This document shows positions 46,897 to 55,769 of a stretch of DNA of 64,000 nt, in pieces; position 1 is the first letter of the stretch, and each line of letters begins with the position of its first letter. The notes below the pieces were generated by a model. It worked only from the letters and a program-made list of their open reading frames with translations. It made no database searches and was not told the DNA's origin. The position numbers and the translations under genes are program-made. Source of the DNA: Amycolatopsis sacchari (GTDB lineage: Bacteria > Actinomycetota > Actinomycetes > Mycobacteriales > Pseudonocardiaceae); the NCBI RefSeq assembly GCF_900114035.1, contig NZ_FORP01000007.1, forward strand, positions 186,001 to 250,000, read 5' to 3'.

Positions 46897-47880
46897 ATGT
46901 CGAGAGCCGTCGTGTTCGACGAGTTCGGCGGGCCGGAAGTGCTGCACGTCGTCGAGGAACCCGTCGTCGAGCCCGGGCCGGGCGAGGTGCGGGTCAGGAT
47001 CGAGGCGTTCGCCGTCAACCCGCTCGACCTGATGATGCGCTCGGGCACGTCACCGGCGCCCGTCCCCCTGCCGCACGCGCGCCTGGGCATCGAGGGGACC
47101 GGGGTCGTCGAGGCGCTGGGCGAGGGGACCACCGGGCTGGAGACCGGGGATCCGGTCATCATCGCGGCCATCCCCGACGCGAACGCCAGGGGCAGCTACG
47201 CCGAGCACACGACGCTCCCCGCGAGCCAGCTCATCCCCCGGCCTGCCGGGCTCACGGTCCCGGAGGCCGCGGCCATCTGGGTCAGCTTCTCCACGGCCTA
47301 CGGCGCGCTCGTCGAGAAGGCGGGGATGCGGCCCGGCGACCACGTCCTGATCACGGCCGCGTCCTCCGGCGTCGGCCGCGCGGCGATCCAGGTCGCGCGC
47401 CACCTCGGGGCCGTCCCGCTCGCGGTGACGCGGACCAGCGCGCGGACGGACGAGCTGCTCGCCGCCGGCGCCGAAGCGGTCGTCGCCACCGACCGGGAGG
47501 ACGTCGCCGAAGCCGTCCGCGCCCACACCGGCGGGACCGGTGCCGACCTCGTCCTCGACCTCGTGCGGGGACCCGGCCAGCAGGAGCTCCTGCGAGCGAC
47601 GCGGCCCGGCGGGACGCTCCTCGCGGCGGGCTTCCTGGACCCCCGGCCCACGCCCTCGCCGGAAGGGACCGACGTCACGGTCATCGGCTACCGCGGCTTC
47701 GAGCACACGCTCGACCCCGTGGTCGTCGGGCGCATGGCGGCGTTCCTGGACGCCGGGGTGCGCCTCGGCACGCTGCGCCCGGCCCTGGACGAGGTGTTCT
47801 CGTTCGACCACGTCGCCGAGGCGCACCGCCGTGTCGAAAAGGGCCTCCACGGCGGCAAGAAGGTCGTGGTGACCGTCTAG
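46897..47880 (+). CDS. Zinc-free MDR oxidoreductase (quinone reductase-like)
   Basis: 327-residue medium-chain reductase. FAVNPLDLMMRSGTSP and GIEGTGVVEALGEG form the catalytic domain; ITAASSGVGRAAIQVARHLG is the NADPH-binding loop; there are no zinc-ligand Cys/His residues. ATG at 46897 follows GGAGGAG; an ATG at 46861 is in frame but lacks a ribosome binding site. Divergent from an HxlR regulator. The stop TAG shares CTAG with the stop of the convergent SMC gene, an overlap of 4 nt. Confidence 0.92.
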   Translation: MSRAVVFDEFGGPEVLHVVEEPVVEPGPGEVRVRIEAFAVNPLDLMMRSGTSPAPVPLPHARLGIEGTGVVEALGEGTTGLETGDPVIIAAIPDANARGSYAEHTTLPASQLIPRPAGLTVPEAAAIWVSFSTAYGALVEKAGMRPGDHVLITAASSGVGRAAIQVARHLGAVPLAVTRTSARTDELLAAGAEAVVATDREDVAEAVRAHTGGTGADLVLDLVRGPGQQELLRATRPGGTLLAAGFLDPRPTPSPEGTDVTVIGYRGFEHTLDPVVVGRMAAFLDAGVRLGTLRPALDEVFSFDHVAEAHRRVEKGLHGGKKVVVTV

Positions 47881-50800
47881 CCCCCCGGCTCGTCGGCGGC
47901 CCGGCTGAACAGGCGGGTCGCCGACAGGTGGGAGGTGCCGTCCGGCTCCGGCAGGTCGTCCAGGTGGCTGCGGATCGTCGCGTCCACCGACAGGTACTTC
48001 CGCCCCGCCCGCAGGTCCGCGTCGTTGCGCAGCCGGATGATCAGCGGGAACTCCGACAGCGCACCGGCGTCGAACAGGCCCGTGGTGTAGATCAGCTGCA
48101 CGCCCAGCGCCTCGGCGACGACCCGTTGCAGCTCCAGCAGGTACCCCGCCGACGCGCGGCCGATCGGGTTGTCCAGGAACAGCACGCCCGAATGCCGGTT
48201 CCGCAGCTTGCCGCGGTTGTTGGCCCGCAGCGCGGCGAGCGTGCAGTACAGGATGATCGCCGCGGTGAGCTGCTGGCCGCCGGAGAACACGTCCCGGATC
48301 TCCGACACCCGCTGCCGCTCGGTGCGCAGGACCGAGTCCGGTTTGAGCATGTCCACCCGGAACCCCTTGGGCACCGCCGCCCGGACGCCGCGCAGCACGA
48401 GCGTCATACCGTCCCGTTTGACGTCGCGGCCGTCGCTCGTCTTGCCCGCCGCCGCTTCGTCGACGACCTGCCCGAGCGCCTCGACCAGTTCGGGCTCCTC
48501 GGGGTCGGCGAAGCGGATGCGCAGGAACTCCTGCCCCGACCAGTCGCCGAGGCCCTCCGGCAGCCGGGAAAGCCGTTGTGCGGAGCGGAGCATCCGCAGC
48601 GCACCCTCGACCATGCCCTGCAGCCGCGCGACGATGCCCGAGCGGTGCCGGTCGATCTGCGCGAGGTCGTCGGTGAGCGTCCGCAGCCGCGGCCGCAGCG
48701 CCTTGGCCCACTCGGCCGCGCTCGCGGGCAGGCTGTCCCGCCGGACCGAGATGATCTGCTGCCGCACCGGGCTCGACAGGCTCTCGAACCGCTTGTCCGT
48801 GGCGTACTGGGCGAGCGCGTCGGCGGCGGCCCGGACCCGCTTCTCTGCCTGGTCCACCGCGGTTTCGGCGTCCGTGAGCGCGGCCGTCAGCTTGCGGTGG
48901 CGGGCCTGCGCCGCCTCGACGTCACCGTCGAACACGGACTCCGGCTCACCCTCGGGAGCCAGGTGCGCGAGGGATTCGGCGAGCAGCCGGAAGCCCGCGG
49001 CGGAGGTGTTCGCCGTTTCGGCGGCGTGCTCGGCCTCGGCACGCCGCGCCTGCGCCTCCTCCCACGCGCGGGCGGCGGCACTGGCCTCCTCGGCGGCCTC
49101 GTCGATCAGCTCACGGCCGTGCTCGACGTCGCGCGGCCGGGTGTCCAGCGTGACGTTCTGGCGGGGCAGCTGGTCCAGCTCGGCCTTACACGTCGCGACC
49201 GCGCCGATCGCCTCGCTGTGCTCGGCCTCCAGCGCCGCCACCGCGCGCCCGGCCCTGGCCAGCGCCGCCGCCCGCGTCGCGGCGTCGGCGCCGTCCGCGG
49301 TCTCCAGCAGGCGGCCCGCCTGCTCGCGCACCGCCGGGTCGAGCGCCTCCAGCGCCGCGCGGGCGGCGGATTCGGCCGACTCGGCCTGGTCCAGTTCCGC
49401 GCGCAGGTCGCTGCCCACCTCCACCTTGGCGTAGGCGTCGCTCGCGGCCGCGAACGCGCGCCGCAGGGCGTCGACCGGTTCCTTCGGGGCGGGGTCCTCT
49501 TCGGACACCGAGCCGCCGCCGGGCACCTCGGCGAGTTCGGCGCGGGCGCTGCTGACGGTCCGGCGGTGACCGTCGGCCGTGCGTTGTTCCTCGGCCCCTT
49601 CCTCGCGCGCACGGGTGGCCCTCGCGGTCGCCTGCTCCGCTTCGGCCTCGGCCCGCGTCACGATCTCGCGGGCACGCTCCACTTCGTCCGTCCACTGTGG
49701 AATCCGCGCGACGCGCTCGGCCAGTTCGCCGAGACGGCGGGCCCGCTCCTCACCCGAGCGCGCTTCGGCGCGCAACGCCGGCACGGCTTCCCGCAGGCGG
49801 GCCCGGCGCGCGGCCAGCTCGGCCAGCTCACGTTCGGCCACCGCCACGGCTTCCTGGCACTCGGCGAATTCGCTCGCCGCGGCCTCCGCCTCCTCGGCGA
49901 GCGTGGCCAGCGCGCCGGGCGGGTAGTCCTCACGCCAGGTCGTGAGCTTCCATTCGAGCGCGGCGTCGTCACCGATGGCGGTGGCCAGCGCCTCCAGCTG
50001 CTTCTGCCGCCGCGAATGCCGGGCGAGGATCGCCTGGCGTTCGGTGTCGGCGGCCTCCTCGTCGTACATCGCGGGGTTGGGCGACACCAGGAACTCCACC
50101 CCGGGTGTACCGCCTTCGCGGCGGACCGCCTCGGTCGTCCCGACCGGCAGCACCGCATTGGGCAGCAGCTTGGCCTCCGCCAGCGCCGTGCGGGCCCTCG
50201 GCAGCTGAGCGGCGTCGTTGACCAGGATGCCGCCGACCAGGTGCGGCAGCTCCGCCAGCACCCGCTCGCGCTCCTTGGCGTCCATTGTGGACAGGTAACG
50301 CCAGCCCGACCGCGCGGGCACCCCGGCGGACTCCAGCACCTCCAGCGCCGCCTGCACCTCGGGCGGCTCGGGCAGGAGGCCGCCGTCGCCGAGCGCCGCG
50401 AGCGCCCGCTCGTCGACCGACTCCTCCATGCGCAACGCGGTCTGCTCGCGTTCCGCGCTCGCGCGGGCCTCCCGCAGGCGCTTGAGCAACGCGGGCGTGT
50501 CGGTCTCCAGCTGGACGTTGTCGCCGCCGAGCAGCTCCAGCAGACGCGGGTGCGCCGCGAGGCTGTCGGTGCGGCGGTTGGCCTTCGCCAGCTCGGAGGC
50601 CGCCCGGTCGGCACGGGTCTGCGCCGCGGCGGCACGCTGCTGGGCGGTGTGCAGGGCCTGCTGCGCGTCCGCGTGTTCCTCGGCCACGCGTTCCAGCTCG
50701 GCTTCACGGGACGCCAGCTCGTTCGCCGCGTTCTCGCCACGGGCACGGGCTTCCTGCGCCGCGCTCGCGACCTGCGTGCCGTCGGTGAGCAGCCCGTCCC

Positions 50801-52316
50801 GCACGGCCTGCTGCACCTGGGCGCGGACCTCCTCGATCCGCGCGCTCAGCTGGGCTTCCTCGGCGCGGTGCTGAGCCGCCCGGCCGGTCGCCTCGTCCCG
50901 CTCCCGCTGTGCCGCGGCGGCGGCGTCCTGGGCAGCGGCGGCGCGTTCCTCGGCCGCCTGCGCCTGTTCCCCCGCCTCGCGGGCGAGGGCGAGCAGGCCG
51001 CGGGCGAGCGCGTTCGCGGCGGCGTTTTTGGCTTCCAGCGCGGGTTTCGCGGTCTGCTCGCGCTCCCCCACCAGCTGCCGGATGCCGTCGGCCTTGCGCA
51101 CGGCGTTGACGTGGGCGAGCACGGTTCCCGTCTCGCGCCAGGCTTCGGCCGCGCGGCGGGCGTCGGCCAGTTCGCTGTCGAGGCGCTGCTTGTCCTCGGT
51201 GGCGCGGGCGAGCCGCAACTCGGCGACGACGCGGCGCAGTTCCGTTACGACGGCCGACAACCGGCGGTGGTCACCTTCGGCGAGCTTCTCCGCGTCCCGC
51301 GTTTCGTCCACGTACGCGGCCAGCCCGGCGAGGCGGTCCGACTCCAGCTTGTGCCGCGCCAGCACCGATCCGGCGAACGCCTGGGCGTCGGAACGGGCGG
51401 CCACGGCGAGCTTGCGGGACGCGGCCGCGAGCGACTCCTCGTCGACCAGCGGCGTGAGCAGGTCGAGCGCACCGGCGACGAAGTCCCGTTCGGCGATGAG
51501 CTCGCCGCGCTGCCCCAGGTTGTGCGCATAGGTCTGGACCACGTCGGCGAGGTCGCGCGGGTCGTCCTCGGGGATCACGGCCTTGAGCAGGAACTCGACG
51601 AACGCCTCGTCGGAGGTGAAGGCGAACGCGTCGGCCGCCTCGCCCTCCCCCGCGTTCATCGCCCGCTGGTAGCGGAACAGCTCGGTGTCCAGGCCCAGCG
51701 CGTCGAGGCGCTCGGTCCACTCGTGGTGGCGGCGGGTCCACGACAGCTCCAGCTCGGGTTCGGCGCGGTGCGCCTCGTCGAGCCGCTCCTGGAAGGCCGA
51801 CATCGTCAGCAGGCGCCCGTCGGCGGTGAACGGCAGCGTGTCCAGGCCCGTGGTGGCGCTGGGCCGGAAGCAGAACCAGGCGTCGACGAGGTTCGCCGGG
51901 TCGTTGGACACGACGTGCCCGCGCCACTCCGACACCTTGCCGGTGATGACGCGCTGCCCGGTCTCGGTGTGCTGCCACTCCAGCACGACGTGCGAAACGT
52001 CCTTGGCGGAGACGAACTTCTCCAGCACGCGGGTGTTCGTGGTGCCGACGACCTGGCGGCGGCCGGGCAGCATGACGGAGAAGATCAGCTTGATCAGCAC
52101 GGACTTGCCGCCGCCGTTCTCGAGGAACAGCACGCTCGCCGGGGACGGGCGCCGGGGCAGCCCCTGCTCGGCGGAGTGGATCCCGGCGGTGAACAACGCG
52201 TCCTGCGCCGGCGCCTTGACCAGCGGCCCGACGCCGCTGAAGTCGAGCAGCACGTCCTGGTACCGCGCGCCCGCCGGACCCACCGAGTGCAGCCGCACCC
52301 GCGAAAGCTCGTACAT
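47877..52316 (-). CDS. MukB/MksB-like SMC ATPase (large subunit)
   Basis: 1479-residue SMC-like protein. The N-terminal head has a P-loop LFLENGGGKSVL (Lys71, Ser72), where the first Gly of the consensus is Leu. The C-terminal head has the signature FSGGQQL (1345-1349) and a Walker B VLFLDNPIG in which Asn1383 replaces the usual catalytic Glu. Between lie about 1000 residues of Ala/Glu/Arg-rich coiled coil, broken by a globular hinge near 650-800 (LLGGDNVQLE...VGGILVNDAAQ...NAVLPVGTTEA). ATG at 52316 follows GGGGGAGC, 7 nt after the MukE-like gene. No JetD/MksG-type nuclease gene lies nearby. I recall similar unnamed proteins in Streptomyces. Confidence 0.88.
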   Translation of the reverse strand: MYELSRVRLHSVGPAGARYQDVLLDFSGVGPLVKAPAQDALFTAGIHSAEQGLPRRPSPASVLFLENGGGKSVLIKLIFSVMLPGRRQVVGTTNTRVLEKFVSAKDVSHVVLEWQHTETGQRVITGKVSEWRGHVVSNDPANLVDAWFCFRPSATTGLDTLPFTADGRLLTMSAFQERLDEAHRAEPELELSWTRRHHEWTERLDALGLDTELFRYQRAMNAGEGEAADAFAFTSDEAFVEFLLKAVIPEDDPRDLADVVQTYAHNLGQRGELIAERDFVAGALDLLTPLVDEESLAAASRKLAVAARSDAQAFAGSVLARHKLESDRLAGLAAYVDETRDAEKLAEGDHRRLSAVVTELRRVVAELRLARATEDKQRLDSELADARRAAEAWRETGTVLAHVNAVRKADGIRQLVGEREQTAKPALEAKNAAANALARGLLALAREAGEQAQAAEERAAAAQDAAAAAQRERDEATGRAAQHRAEEAQLSARIEEVRAQVQQAVRDGLLTDGTQVASAAQEARARGENAANELASREAELERVAEEHADAQQALHTAQQRAAAAQTRADRAASELAKANRRTDSLAAHPRLLELLGGDNVQLETDTPALLKRLREARASAEREQTALRMEESVDERALAALGDGGLLPEPPEVQAALEVLESAGVPARSGWRYLSTMDAKERERVLAELPHLVGGILVNDAAQLPRARTALAEAKLLPNAVLPVGTTEAVRREGGTPGVEFLVSPNPAMYDEEAADTERQAILARHSRRQKQLEALATAIGDDAALEWKLTTWREDYPPGALATLAEEAEAAASEFAECQEAVAVAERELAELAARRARLREAVPALRAEARSGEERARRLGELAERVARIPQWTDEVERAREIVTRAEAEAEQATARATRAREEGAEEQRTADGHRRTVSSARAELAEVPGGGSVSEEDPAPKEPVDALRRAFAAASDAYAKVEVGSDLRAELDQAESAESAARAALEALDPAVREQAGRLLETADGADAATRAAALARAGRAVAALEAEHSEAIGAVATCKAELDQLPRQNVTLDTRPRDVEHGRELIDEAAEEASAAARAWEEAQARRAEAEHAAETANTSAAGFRLLAESLAHLAPEGEPESVFDGDVEAAQARHRKLTAALTDAETAVDQAEKRVRAAADALAQYATDKRFESLSSPVRQQIISVRRDSLPASAAEWAKALRPRLRTLTDDLAQIDRHRSGIVARLQGMVEGALRMLRSAQRLSRLPEGLGDWSGQEFLRIRFADPEEPELVEALGQVVDEAAAGKTSDGRDVKRDGMTLVLRGVRAAVPKGFRVDMLKPDSVLRTERQRVSEIRDVFSGGQQLTAAIILYCTLAALRANNRGKLRNRHSGVLFLDNPIGRASAGYLLELQRVVAEALGVQLIYTTGLFDAGALSEFPLIIRLRNDADLRAGRKYLSVDATIRSHLDDLPEPDGTSHLSATRLFSRAADEPGG

Positions 52317-52323
52317 GCTCCCC

Positions 52324-53112
52324 CTACAGAGTGTCCGAAATGGACGGACGGAGGGTGCCTGCGGAATCCCCCACCGCGACGACACCCAGTTCCAGCAACT
52401 CCTCGAAAGCGCTGTCCGCCGCGAGTTCCCTGACCTGCACCTGGTAACGCGGCGTCGTGCGGTAGGTGCCGCCCTGCTCGCCGCTCACCTGCACCAGGAA
52501 CCCTTGGTCGGCGAGGAACCGCAGCGCCCGCGACACCATGCCGCGCGTCGTGTCCGACGCCAGGCGCCCGTCCTTCGTCGCCGCGGCCGCGGGGCGGCGG
52601 GCGTACGCGCGCCACGCCTGCTCCAGCTCCGGCGCGTCCGACAGCGGGTCGTTGTTGCGTTCCGCCTTCGCCGCGCGCTCGTCGAGGATCCGGCACGCCT
52701 CGCGGACCACGCTGTCCACCTGCTCGACGCTCACCCGGCCGATGTAGGTGTCGTTGGCCAGGTCGTCCGGCCTCGGGTAGCCCAGCGCGGCGGTCGCCAG
52801 GTGCACCAGCCCGTGCAGCACCTTCTCGGTGTCCCGGCGCTCGCGGATCTTGCTCTGCCGCGCGTAGGAGTCCATCTTGATCTCGAACACCGACTCGTCG
52901 GTGGCCGCGAGCACCGCACCGGCCTGCGTGCTGACGTCCAGCACCAGCAGCCCGAGCCCCGCCGCGACCGAGTTCGCCAGCTGCTTGAAAGCGCTGTCCT
53001 CCCGGTACCGGCGGACGAGGTCGGCGTACACCACGTCGCGGCCGGGCAGCTGCTTCGGCCGCATGCCGTACGACACCAGCCGCGCCGCGGCCTCCACGTC
53101 AGCCGTGTTCAC
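52324..53112 (-). CDS. MukE/MksE/JetB-like winged-helix subunit
   Basis: 262-residue soluble protein between the kleisin-like and SMC-like genes. It has two helix-rich parts, and the C-terminal TTRGMVSRALRFLADQGFLVQVSGEQGGTYRTTPRYQVQV has the look of a winged helix: helix, helix, beta-wing. By size, position and this fold it corresponds to the KITE-type subunit of MukBEF/MksBEF/Wadjet complexes. The GTG at 53112 overlaps the kleisin gene by 14 nt with GAGGGG upstream; a GTG at 53097 is possible. Sequence similarity to named families is too weak to judge by eye. Confidence 0.72.
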   Translation of the reverse strand: MNTADVEAAARLVSYGMRPKQLPGRDVVYADLVRRYREDSAFKQLANSVAAGLGLLVLDVSTQAGAVLAATDESVFEIKMDSYARQSKIRERRDTEKVLHGLVHLATAALGYPRPDDLANDTYIGRVSVEQVDSVVREACRILDERAAKAERNNDPLSDAPELEQAWRAYARRPAAAATKDGRLASDTTRGMVSRALRFLADQGFLVQVSGEQGGTYRTTPRYQVQVRELAADSAFEELLELGVVAVGDSAGTLRPSISDTL

Positions 53113-54574
53113 GTTCTTCGTCCCCTCGCTCGATGCGCGCCGTCGCGAGCAGCAGGTCCGCGCCCCCGAACTCCTCGTCGTCGAGCGGCGTGCCGTCGTC
53201 GACCGCCAGCAGCGCGCGGTCGTCCCCCTGCCGGATCGCCGCGCCGACCTCCGGACTGTACGAGTGCAGCGCCCGCAGCGCGACCAGACGGGCCAGCCGC
53301 GGATCGAGCTCACGGGCCTCCGCCAGCAGCCCGGACAACCGCCGGGGCACCTCCGGCAGGTCGAGCAGCTCGTCGGCGCGCCGCCACTGCTCGTCACTGT
53401 AGTAGTCGGCCGCCTCGGCGGGGACCAGCTCCGGTTCCGGCACCTCGCCCACCAGCTCTTCGCGTTCGGGTGCGGGCCGCAGCAGCAGCGACACCAGCGA
53501 CGGGAGCGACGGCACGGTCGGCACGTCGAACCCGGCCGCGGCGGAGAAGAACCGCTCGACCGGGGCCACGGCGTCCGCGATCGGCAGCTCCAGCGTCGGC
53601 ACCAGCAGCTGCCCGAACAGGTCGATCGTGGCGCGCTGCGGCGGCCCGGAGAACTGCTGGCGGTCCTGCTCGGCGCGGAAGATCGCGCCCGCGGCCTGCA
53701 GCCGCGCCTGGAGCTGGGTGTGCCTGCTGATGCAGTCGCTGACGATGTCGACCAGCTCGGCGGCCCGGCGCTTGTGGTCGGGATCCTCCGCCTCGTCACG
53801 CGCACGGGTGATGTTGCGGAGGATGGCGTTCTCGGCGCGGAAGCGGGCCTCGATGTGGGACAGCGCGGAGTCCAGCAGCTCCGGCATCTCCTCCGCCCAG
53901 TCGACCGCCCGCACGTCACGCCGGGTCGCGTCGAGCTTCGCGCGCAGCGTCTCGCCGTACTGGACCGTGCGGTAGCGGGCCTGCTCGGCGGCCAGCTTCG
54001 CGTCCGCCAGGCGGCCGCGGCTGATCAGGTTCTCCAGCTTCACCTCGGCCGCGATCTGGGCGGACTCGACGTCGGTGTCCAGCGCCCCGACGAGCACGTT
54101 GATCGCCTCGTCGCTGGCGCGCAGGTACACCTCGCCGTCGGGCGCGGCCAGCTCGACCAGCAGCTTGAAGTCGAACGCCCGGCGCCGGTACACGCCGTGC
54201 TCGTCGACGCTGCCGTACACCCGGCGGAACCCGCGGTCGGCGGTGCCGACGTTGATCAGGTTGTCCAGCACCCAGCGCGCCACCCGCAGGTGCTCCTCGG
54301 CGCCGCGGCCGGGCGCCTGCGCGGCGATGAACGGCTGCAGGCGGCGCACGATGTCCTCGTGGTCGGCGCCGGTGTCGAAGTCCATCGCGATCGTGACCTG
54401 GTCGATCGTGTGCAGCGCGATCTCGGCCATCTGGTAGACCGTCGCGTCGGCCCAGTCCAGCTTCGCCTTGCGCGCGTCCAGGTCGTGCAGGGGCGCGGTG
54501 CACGCGAGCGCCTTGAGCCGGCGGGCCAGGCCCTCGTCCACCAGCCCACCGCTGATCAGCTCGCCTTGTTGCAC
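53099..54574 (-). CDS. MukF/MksF/JetA-like kleisin subunit
   Basis: 491-residue first gene of the SMC operon. The N-terminus is helical (about 1-110) with a possible winged-helix/dimerisation part. A middle region of long helices (VKLENLISRGRLADAKLAAEQARYRTVQYGETLRAKLDATRRDV, about 200-330) resembles the MukF helical bundle, and the C-terminus is acidic with GGADLLLATARIERGDEE, possibly the SMC-contacting winged helix. The GTG at 54574 is leaderless, 8 nt after TACACT. Assigned by operon order and length, matching jetA-jetB-jetC; direct homology needs a profile search. Confidence 0.72.
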   Translation of the reverse strand: MQQGELISGGLVDEGLARRLKALACTAPLHDLDARKAKLDWADATVYQMAEIALHTIDQVTIAMDFDTGADHEDIVRRLQPFIAAQAPGRGAEEHLRVARWVLDNLINVGTADRGFRRVYGSVDEHGVYRRRAFDFKLLVELAAPDGEVYLRASDEAINVLVGALDTDVESAQIAAEVKLENLISRGRLADAKLAAEQARYRTVQYGETLRAKLDATRRDVRAVDWAEEMPELLDSALSHIEARFRAENAILRNITRARDEAEDPDHKRRAAELVDIVSDCISRHTQLQARLQAAGAIFRAEQDRQQFSGPPQRATIDLFGQLLVPTLELPIADAVAPVERFFSAAAGFDVPTVPSLPSLVSLLLRPAPEREELVGEVPEPELVPAEAADYYSDEQWRRADELLDLPEVPRRLSGLLAEARELDPRLARLVALRALHSYSPEVGAAIRQGDDRALLAVDDGTPLDDEEFGGADLLLATARIERGDEEREHG

Positions 54575-54582
54575 GAGGAGTC

Positions 54583-54592
54583 AGTGTAGGTT
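54583..54592. promoter_or_regulatory. Overlapping divergent -10 boxes of the SMC operon and the PPOX gene
   Basis: Minus strand TACACT (54588-54583) lies 8 nt before the GTG of the kleisin-like gene. Plus strand TAGGTT (54587-54592) lies 8 nt before the ATG of the PPOX gene. Both genes look leaderless, and the two boxes share bases. Confidence 0.65.
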
Positions 54593-54600
54593 CGGTAGCC

Positions 54601-55038
54601 ATGTACGAGATGAGCAGGGACCAGTGGTGGAAGTTCGCGAGCGAGGGCACGCGCACGGGCAAGGCGGCGGTCGTCCGCGCCGACGGCTCCCCGCACGTCA
54701 CGCCCATCTGGTTCGTCCTCAACGAGACCGGGGACGGCGACGAGCTGATCTTCAACACCGGCGCCGAGTCCGTGAAGGGCCGCGCACTGCGCCGGGAACC
54801 GCGCCTGTCGGTGACGGTGGACGACCAGGAGCCGCCCTACTCGTACGTGCAGTTCACGGCGGTCGCGACGCTGAGCGAGGACCTCGACGAGATGCTGCCG
54901 TGGTCGATCGCGATCGGCGCCCGCTACATGGGCCAGGACCGCGGGGAGGAGTTCGGCAGGCGCAACGCCGTGCCGGGGGAGCTGCTCGTGCGCGCGAAGA
55001 TCACCAAGGTCATCGCGCACGCCGATCTGGCCGGCTGA
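54601..55038 (+). CDS. PPOX-class F420-dependent (or flavin-binding) oxidoreductase
   Basis: 145-residue split-barrel protein of the pyridoxamine-phosphate-oxidase-like class, Rv1155/F420 type. GKAAVVRADGSPHVTPIWFVLN and LIFNTGAESVKGRALRREPRLSVTVDD are the cofactor-binding strands, and PYSYVQFTAVATL is the central barrel. In actinobacteria many of these use F420; the exact cofactor cannot be fixed by eye. Leaderless ATG at 54601. A GC-rich hairpin follows. Confidence 0.88.
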   Translation: MYEMSRDQWWKFASEGTRTGKAAVVRADGSPHVTPIWFVLNETGDGDELIFNTGAESVKGRALRREPRLSVTVDDQEPPYSYVQFTAVATLSEDLDEMLPWSIAIGARYMGQDRGEEFGRRNAVPGELLVRAKITKVIAHADLAG

Positions 55039-55082: not shown

Positions 55083-55769
55083 GTGAAGCCCGACGAACTG
55101 GACTGGGCCGCGCTCGCGGCCGAACTCGACGAATACGGGTGCGCGCTGACGCCGCGCCTGCTCACCCCTGACCAATGCCGCGAGCTGGCCGCGCTGTACG
55201 ACGAACCGCGGCACTTCCGCGCCACGATCGACATGGCGCGGTACCGGTTCGGGGCGGGGCAGTACCGGTACTTCCGCTACCCCCTGCCGGAACCGGTCGC
55301 CGCGCTGCGGGCGGCGTTCTACCCGCACCTGCTGCCGATCGCCCGCGACTGGGCGGCCCGGCTGGGTCACCCGGCGCCCTGGCCGGACGACCTGGAGGAG
55401 TGGCTCGCCCGCTGCCACGACGCCGGGCAGACCCGGCCCACGCCGATCCTGCTCCGCTACGGCCCCGGCGACTGGAACGCGTTGCACCGGGACCTCTACG
55501 GGGACCTTGTCTTCCCGTTGCAGGTGGTGTTCGGGTTGGACACCGACTACACGGGCGGCGAGTTCCTGCTCGTGGAGCAGCGGCCGCGCGCGCAGTCCCG
55601 CGGCACGGCCACGGCGCTGAAGCAGGGCCACGCGCTGATCTTCACGACGCGAGACCGGCCGGTGCGTTCAAGCCGGGGGTGGTCGGCGGCCCCGGTCCGG
55701 CACGGCGTGAGCACCGTCCGGACCGGCCGCCGCCACACCCTCGGCCTCGTCTTCCACGACGCGACTTAG
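55083..55769 (+). CDS. 2-oxoglutarate/Fe(II)-dependent oxygenase family protein
   Basis: 228-residue double-stranded beta-helix dioxygenase. The iron facial triad is visible as HRD (NALHRDLYGDLVFPLQ) and a later His in APVRHGVSTV, followed by Arg in RTGRRHTLGLVFHD for 2-oxoglutarate binding. The layout matches small bacterial prolyl-hydroxylase-like proteins (PF09859 type). The GTG at 55083 sits 7 nt after CACACT and is probably leaderless. It converges with the glucosyl-3-phosphoglycerate synthase gene, the stops overlapping in TTAG. Substrate unknown. Confidence 0.87.
   Translation: MKPDELDWAALAAELDEYGCALTPRLLTPDQCRELAALYDEPRHFRATIDMARYRFGAGQYRYFRYPLPEPVAALRAAFYPHLLPIARDWAARLGHPAPWPDDLEEWLARCHDAGQTRPTPILLRYGPGDWNALHRDLYGDLVFPLQVVFGLDTDYTGGEFLLVEQRPRAQSRGTATALKQGHALIFTTRDRPVRSSRGWSAAPVRHGVSTVRTGRRHTLGLVFHDAT

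Follow-up and report, generated by a model that had tools for sequence, protein, structure and literature searches.

An SMC protein, a kleisin and a KITE protein make up both Smc-ScpAB and the JetABC part of Wadjet systems. In Actinobacteria, Mks-like complexes stand beside Smc-ScpAB, as do MksBEFG in Corynebacterium and EptABCD in Mycobacterium, and one paper reportedly treats MksB as a mycobacterial condensin. In Wadjet, JetABC is proposed to sense circular DNA by loop extrusion and JetD to cut it, as set out in passages of a review (PMC10586767); the same passages propose JetD loss as the route to MksBEF and speculate on an origin of MukBEF from Wadjet, with no intermediates shown there. 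Nuclease-less trios of kleisin, KITE and SMC proteins are found in Pseudomonas aeruginosa (MksBEF) and in enterobacteria (MukBEF). P. aeruginosa keeps Smc beside MksBEF (excerpts of PMC7485682), whereas in enterobacteria MukBEF replaced Smc-ScpAB (PMC10586767, same passages). According to excerpts of two papers, MksBEFG of Corynebacterium glutamicum carries a nuclease and acts on plasmids (PMC7083940, PMC10123090), and, unlike P. aeruginosa MksBEF, it does not act on the chromosome (PMC7083940). Wadjet is enriched in Actinobacteria (42% of genomes) and placed toward the chromosome ends of Streptomyces in sections of Georjon et al. (PMC10482375), and the word JetD is absent from its main text.

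The window analysed here is a stretch of 64,000 nucleotides of Amycolatopsis sacchari (contig NZ_FORP01000007.1, positions 186,001 to 250,000) from a genome of 7.59 Mb with a computed completeness of 99.99%. It holds an intact jetABC operon on the minus strand at 47877-54574, three tightly packed ORFs of the sizes that a sequence-only reading of this DNA had proposed for a three-gene operon. The features are as follows.

53099..54574, minus strand: jetA, kleisin, MukF-like; 491 aa, GTG start
52324..53112, minus strand: jetB, KITE, MukE/JetB-like winged-helix protein; 262 aa, GTG start
47877..52316, minus strand: jetC, SMC ATPase; 1479 aa, ATG start
54583..54588, minus strand: TACACT, a -10-like hexamer that ends 8 nt before the jetA start
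54601..55038, plus strand: pyridoxamine-oxidase-like gene, divergent; PF01243, 58 bits

The jetA and jetB genes overlap by 14 nt, and a gap of 7 nt separates jetB from jetC, whose start is preceded by GGGGGAG. JetC displays a Walker A motif (LENGGGKS), a signature motif (FSGGQ) and a Walker B motif (LFLDNP), and the closest JetA relative among the matches listed, at 95%, is that of Amycolatopsis bartoniae. The flanks are an oxidoreductase and a PPOX protein, as the sequence-only reading had them: a zinc-type oxidoreductase gene on the plus strand ends at 47880, sharing 4 nt with the end of jetC, and the PF01243 gene lies on the other side; gap and whiA are also found within the window where they had been placed. 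Of 38 Pseudonocardiaceae loci, 28 have the pyridoxamine-oxidase-like gene upstream of jetA at a distance of at most 1 kb, and its family is not common to the 37 Streptomycetaceae loci; it is a syntenic neighbour and not a component of the JetABC complex. Also near jetA, at 55083-55769, is a 2OG-Fe(II) oxygenase of the Oxygenase-NA family (PF09859), a family described for damaged DNA.

JetC matches the PADLOC model JetC3 (PDLC00588) with 1948 bits over residues 1-1475, and JetA matches JetA3 (PDLC00567) with 706 bits over nearly its full length; these full-length matches exclude chance ORFs. JetB matches its own PADLOC model (JetB3) weakly, with 12.2 bits and an E-value of 0.017. A Pfam scan of the three proteins (E ≤ 1) returned no MukB, MukE or MukF family and one sub-threshold match for JetB, a PHROGs search gave nothing useful, and searches of PDB sequences, whether with the JetC sequence or with a profile of each of the three proteins, returned coiled-coil or unrelated matches only. 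As the PDB searches were uninformative, the predicted folds of JetA and JetB were compared with known structures, the identity of JetC resting on its sequence. The best match is MukF for JetA and MukE/JetB for JetB. TM-scores are modest, and CorA too matches the helical region on which the JetA comparison depends. The kleisin, KITE and SMC identities first read from the letters are upheld, with kleisin- and KITE-like folds predicted for the two small proteins; of the two likenesses then offered, jetABC and mksFEB, the PADLOC models support type III JetABC, and Pfam detects no MukBEF family. Judged by sequence, the complex is thus a Wadjet type III JetABC and not MukBEF. It shares the architecture of Smc-ScpAB, but jetC scores 29.6 bits against the Smc family TIGR02168, below the cut-off of 567.35, and an ordinary Smc is encoded elsewhere in the source genome (C68, 984 bits).

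Unlike Wadjet type III, which has JetD, the operon has no JetD in cis or elsewhere in its genome. The JetD of the type III group corresponds to the PADLOC model JetD3 (PDLC00594) and is found directly after jetC in relatives, where it is detected by JetD3 and, less well, by PF09983; P0006, a JetD directly after a jetC, reaches 19.3 bits with PF09983 against a cut-off of 22. Since type III JetD is poorly detected by PF09983 on its own, searches for JetD used JetD3 together with an HMM built from three JetDs. In the whole source genome, neither PF09983 (E ≤ 1) nor JetD3 (E ≤ 10) gave a match, which extends to the genome the earlier remark that no nuclease gene lies on either side. Downstream of jetC in JetD-less loci, no trace of a former jetD scored above 5.7 bits. 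In type I systems, JetD contacts an N-terminal motif of JetB (passages of PMC10586767), and inspection of the JetB N-terminus by eye revealed no JetD-contact motif lost in the JetD-less form.

Relatives of the operon come in both forms. A JetA relative is encoded in at least 551 of the at least 594 candidate stretches collected, from which the best 80 were taken forward. Together with JetD-bearing loci and loci from genome surveys, these 80 nearest loci make up 134 distinct systems (138 with duplicates counted), a chosen and therefore non-random set, sampled counts being those of the genome surveys. JetD is missing from 91 of these systems and directly follows jetC in 29, at a spacing of -16 to 207 bp, while for the other 14 the contig or fetched stretch ends too soon to tell. 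A consistently linked JetD in related genomes, which would have spoken against the sequence-only reading, is not found in the window's clade, yet JetD is linked in 29 of the 120 classifiable systems. Genomes of 50 of the 80 nearest relatives were searched, and 10 have a JetD3 match, strong in six; JetD is linked to the fetched locus in three of these (L039, L042, L045) and belongs to a second, separate system in the genomes of L015, L023 and L036.

The JetA tree includes all 134 systems and the JetC tree 105, namely those with one long JetC reading. In the JetC tree, JetD-linked systems lie mostly on long, deep branches, and JetD-less rows form two large short-branched groups, one of Streptomycetaceae (29/29) and one of syntenic Pseudonocardiaceae (46/48); L029 and L042 are JetD-linked systems inside the latter clade. 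A third JetD-less group (family f16) joins the Streptomycetaceae in the JetA trees, and in the JetC tree the JetD-less row of this family (L127), with a JetC that is cut short, falls elsewhere. Both trees need at least 10 changes of JetD label, with 8 (JetC) and 9 (JetA) forced by starred branches, and a JetA tree of 40 hand-picked rows needs 9, with 7 forced. One test of the JetD-less rows as a single clade (p 4.6e-6) was rejected as badly posed, for it omitted rows grouping with Streptomyces; a corrected test of one joint JetD-less clade gave a borderline p-AU of 0.044. These trees favour separate losses of JetD in the lineages of Streptomyces and Amycolatopsis, and JetD was probably lost more than once.

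The prevalence of the two forms was surveyed by counting JetA and JetD3, the two proteins to which the surveys were confined. In the window's genus, JetA is found in 13/13 genomes and JetD in 1/13, beside the second system of that genome. JetA3 is found in 63 and JetD3 in 23 of 200 genomes of the window's family, and the 63 divide into 21 with JetD3 and 42 with none; a class survey gave 47/295 and 6/295, respectively. Genus g22 is taken to be Streptomyces because three of its rows in the JetC tree (L120, L132, L138) fall within named Streptomyces, and it has JetA in 148 of 150 genomes, counting a weak match (G649, E 1.2e-30) and a middling one (G616, 3.9e-101), and JetD3 in 13 of 150. The two g22 genomes without JetA are drafts of 1040 and 1140 contigs. 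More than one JetA is found in 14 g22 genomes, which include all 13 with JetD3, and none of the 134 single-JetA g22 genomes has JetD3. Among the 37 fetched Streptomycetaceae loci, jetB is present in 34 and jetC in 33, the rest lying near the end of the fetched stretch. In G622 and G678, both of g22, JetD3 copies are seen near both chromosome ends, as if in terminal inverted repeats.

The position of the operon is likewise stable within each lineage. The families of whiA, rapZ, uvrC and yvcK or of gap, pgk and tpiA are near the operon in 37 of 38 Pseudonocardiaceae loci, the miss being on a contig of 5.8 kb, and both the whiA and gap sides are in reach in 18; the genes immediately beside the operon vary among the relatives fetched, though whiA or gap is nearby. 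In Streptomycetaceae, 33 of 37 loci lie near one common gene group, which we take to consist of 5-oxoprolinase-like genes, at a site that differs from that of Pseudonocardiaceae. Measured against record length, the locus is no more than roughly 20% away from an end in 29 of 33 g22 genomes that consist of a single contig. The sequence-only reading was right about a conserved actinobacterial complex, which recurs across relatives, but its placement in an accessory stretch is contradicted by the fixed whiA/gap position, the vertical inheritance and the presence of JetA throughout the genus. In contrast to the JetD-linked systems scattered on long branches, the JetD-less form is, by descent and position, a vertically inherited chromosomal fixture. 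A linear Rhodococcus plasmid also carries, close to its end, a complete jetABCD (L117:7941-16278), whose fourth gene is annotated as Wadjet JetD.

Both gain and loss of jetD have left traces. The JetC of Amycolatopsis rifamycinica (L029) and its counterpart in JetD-less A. bullii share 96% identity, falling to 81% over the last 85 aligned residues, and jetD follows jetC in L029. Two bases past the jetD stop, the old jetC tail DSAEDEQPA with its stop codon persists unread. As this tail or a near copy is the coding jetC end in close JetD-less relatives, A. rifamycinica most likely gained jetD and a new jetC end by insertion (L029:16566-17856). The converse is found in G419 (L158, Pseudonocardiaceae), where the sequence lying after jetD in L148 and L149 is met no more than about 60-75 bases past jetC, with local alignment scores of 294 and 356 against at most 46 in shuffles; a third JetD-bearing relative, L145, gave no match (score 37). 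From these alignments, G419 is read as a clean loss of jetD. JetD can thus move as a cassette and return after loss. In the class sample, the g22 genomes G198 (L125) and G337 (L134), each with one JetA match, encode a lone JetD-like gene, around which no jetABC was found within the 15-16 kb fetched; L125 presumably also holds a transposase-like ORF.

Selection has acted on all three subunits. In the comparison with A. bartoniae, dN/dS is 0.12 for JetA, 0.04 for JetB and 0.11 for JetC, with 0.03-0.08 for WhiA, RapZ and UvrC; in that with P. shujinwangii, the values are 0.30, 0.14 and 0.37, with 0.09-0.22 for WhiA, RapZ, UvrC and Gap. Over 18 loci, mean identity is 81% for JetA, 86% for JetB and 74% for JetC, compared to 92% for WhiA, 86% for UvrC and 92% for RapZ, and it correlates with the mean of these three housekeeping proteins (r = 0.92, 0.79 and 0.85 for JetA, JetB and JetC). 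The low dN/dS and the tracking of housekeeping genes indicate that the complex is constrained by purifying selection and vertically inherited, with JetA and JetC evolving faster than the neighbours. In JetD-less JetC rows, Walker A is kept in 82/82, the signature in 81/82 and Walker B in 81/82, the miss being the shortened row L127, and jetC is split in one of 91 JetD-less systems (L068). The Walker B motif carries a catalytic glutamate in other SMCs and an asparagine in type III JetC; D1382, N1383 and P1384 are invariant in 30/30 aligned JetC rows, JetD-linked or not. A reading of LDNP as a decayed ATPase was rejected, as 23 JetD-linked rows also have DNP.

Transcription of jetA is probably leaderless in both lineages, a prediction made because a -10-like TANNNT, ending 5-10 nt ahead of jetA, is present in 39/39 Pseudonocardiaceae loci (0.8 in shuffles) and in 34/37 Streptomycetaceae loci (1.5 in shuffles). 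Inspection of L046-L082 by eye also showed, in many Streptomyces loci, a GTTTnGnnnGTTGTC-like block about 15-45 nt upstream of jetA and upstream of the -10-like site, which is possibly an operator.

The window's system thus has the gene order, the full-length JetC and JetA homology, the JetA and JetB folds and the ATPase motifs, including the Walker B DNP, of Wadjet type III. Being without MksG, it also resembles the nuclease-less MksBEF and MukBEF, with similar folds of the two small subunits, and a chromosomal role may be proposed by analogy; it differs from them in being a type III Wadjet relative from Actinobacteria in which Pfam detects no MukBEF family. Its genome keeps Smc, as P. aeruginosa does and unlike enterobacteria, and its lack of a nuclease sets it apart from MksBEFG. 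Given that the nuclease-bearing MksBEFG targets plasmids and that an ordinary Smc is encoded in the window's genome, the favoured explanation, to which we give somewhat better than even chances, is a second condensin beside Smc-ScpAB, derived from Wadjet III and similar to MukBEF/MksBEF, that would loop DNA without cutting it. On this view, a type III JetABC core would have shed its nuclease and settled on the chromosome as a lasting SMC complex. Without JetD, the ATP-driven, kleisin-bridged SMC dimer would still bind ATP, capture DNA and extrude loops with no cleavage, a cycle that has also been proposed for chromosomal action of MukBEF and MksBEF; we infer the loop extrusion, the action on the chromosome and the dispensability of cleavage, and the conservation of the complex suggests a role in organising the chromosome. 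The intact subunits, the lack of JetD, the fixed neighbourhood, vertical inheritance, purifying selection, the ATPase motifs and the near-universal JetA of g22 support this explanation. Against it stand the lower constraint on JetA and JetC than on housekeeping neighbours in the P. shujinwangii comparison, a JetB that shows no lost JetD-contact motif in the JetD-less form, the Walker B asparagine in place of glutamate (JetD-linked rows included) and the lone JetD-like genes of G198 and G337. In addition, an effector that is encoded far away or is unrelated could function in trans, and the core may still work with JetD, since JetD came back in A. rifamycinica.

Some of these points lead to other explanations. 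The complex may still act against plasmids without JetD, extruding small circles fully and then recruiting an unrelated nuclease from another locus or blocking replication or transcription of the trapped circle, much as eukaryotic Smc5/6 silences episomes. JetC and JetA do come from a plasmid-sensing family, yet vertical inheritance and JetA in 148/150 g22 genomes are unlike JetD-bearing systems (JetD3 in 13/150), and no shared effector candidate was seen in the fetched stretches of both lineages. Beyond jetABC, a single gene family, presumably glycosyltransferase-like, recurs in at least two loci of both lineages (2 and 16 loci). The JetABC part is thought to confer the sensing of shape and size (passages of PMC10586767) and Wadjet is enriched in Actinobacteria (sections of PMC10482375), which also speak for the anti-plasmid role; this role is the main rival, though an unlikely one, at perhaps one chance in a handful. 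Less probable still is a Wadjet drawing on JetD in trans or serving as a platform re-armed by JetD cassettes, with defence as the selected function: it would fit the jetD insertion in A. rifamycinica with its surviving jetC tail and the lone JetD-like genes of G198 and G337, but JetD3 is absent from the source genome and the 134 single-JetA g22 genomes, and from 42 of the 63 family genomes with JetA. That the operon is a decaying relic of a defence system would agree with the loss of its effector gene and is scarcely credible given the intact ORFs, low dN/dS, conserved motifs and the same neighbourhood in dozens of species.

For the second condensin, it is about an even bet that Streptomyces and Pseudonocardiaceae hold an unrecognised one that arose from Wadjet III by loss of JetD, in parallel with and independently of the proposed origin of MksBEF and MukBEF, and that this loss is reversible via re-insertion of JetD at the jetC end, which would re-arm the complex as in A. 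rifamycinica. In the parts of the open-licence papers that the literature search returned, no JetD-less type III complex or second Streptomyces condensin was found described, and excerpts of Streptomyces papers speak of Smc as the condensin (PMC13121528, PMC8410768, PMC8410849). As to the conversion between defence and housekeeping SMC complexes, close species here differ by the JetD cassette, with both a gain that left a scar and a clean loss of jetD legible in the DNA. The JetD-less form is near-universal in the genus taken as Streptomyces, among the best studied of bacterial genera, where a second condensin, if true, could help explain the mild smc phenotype.
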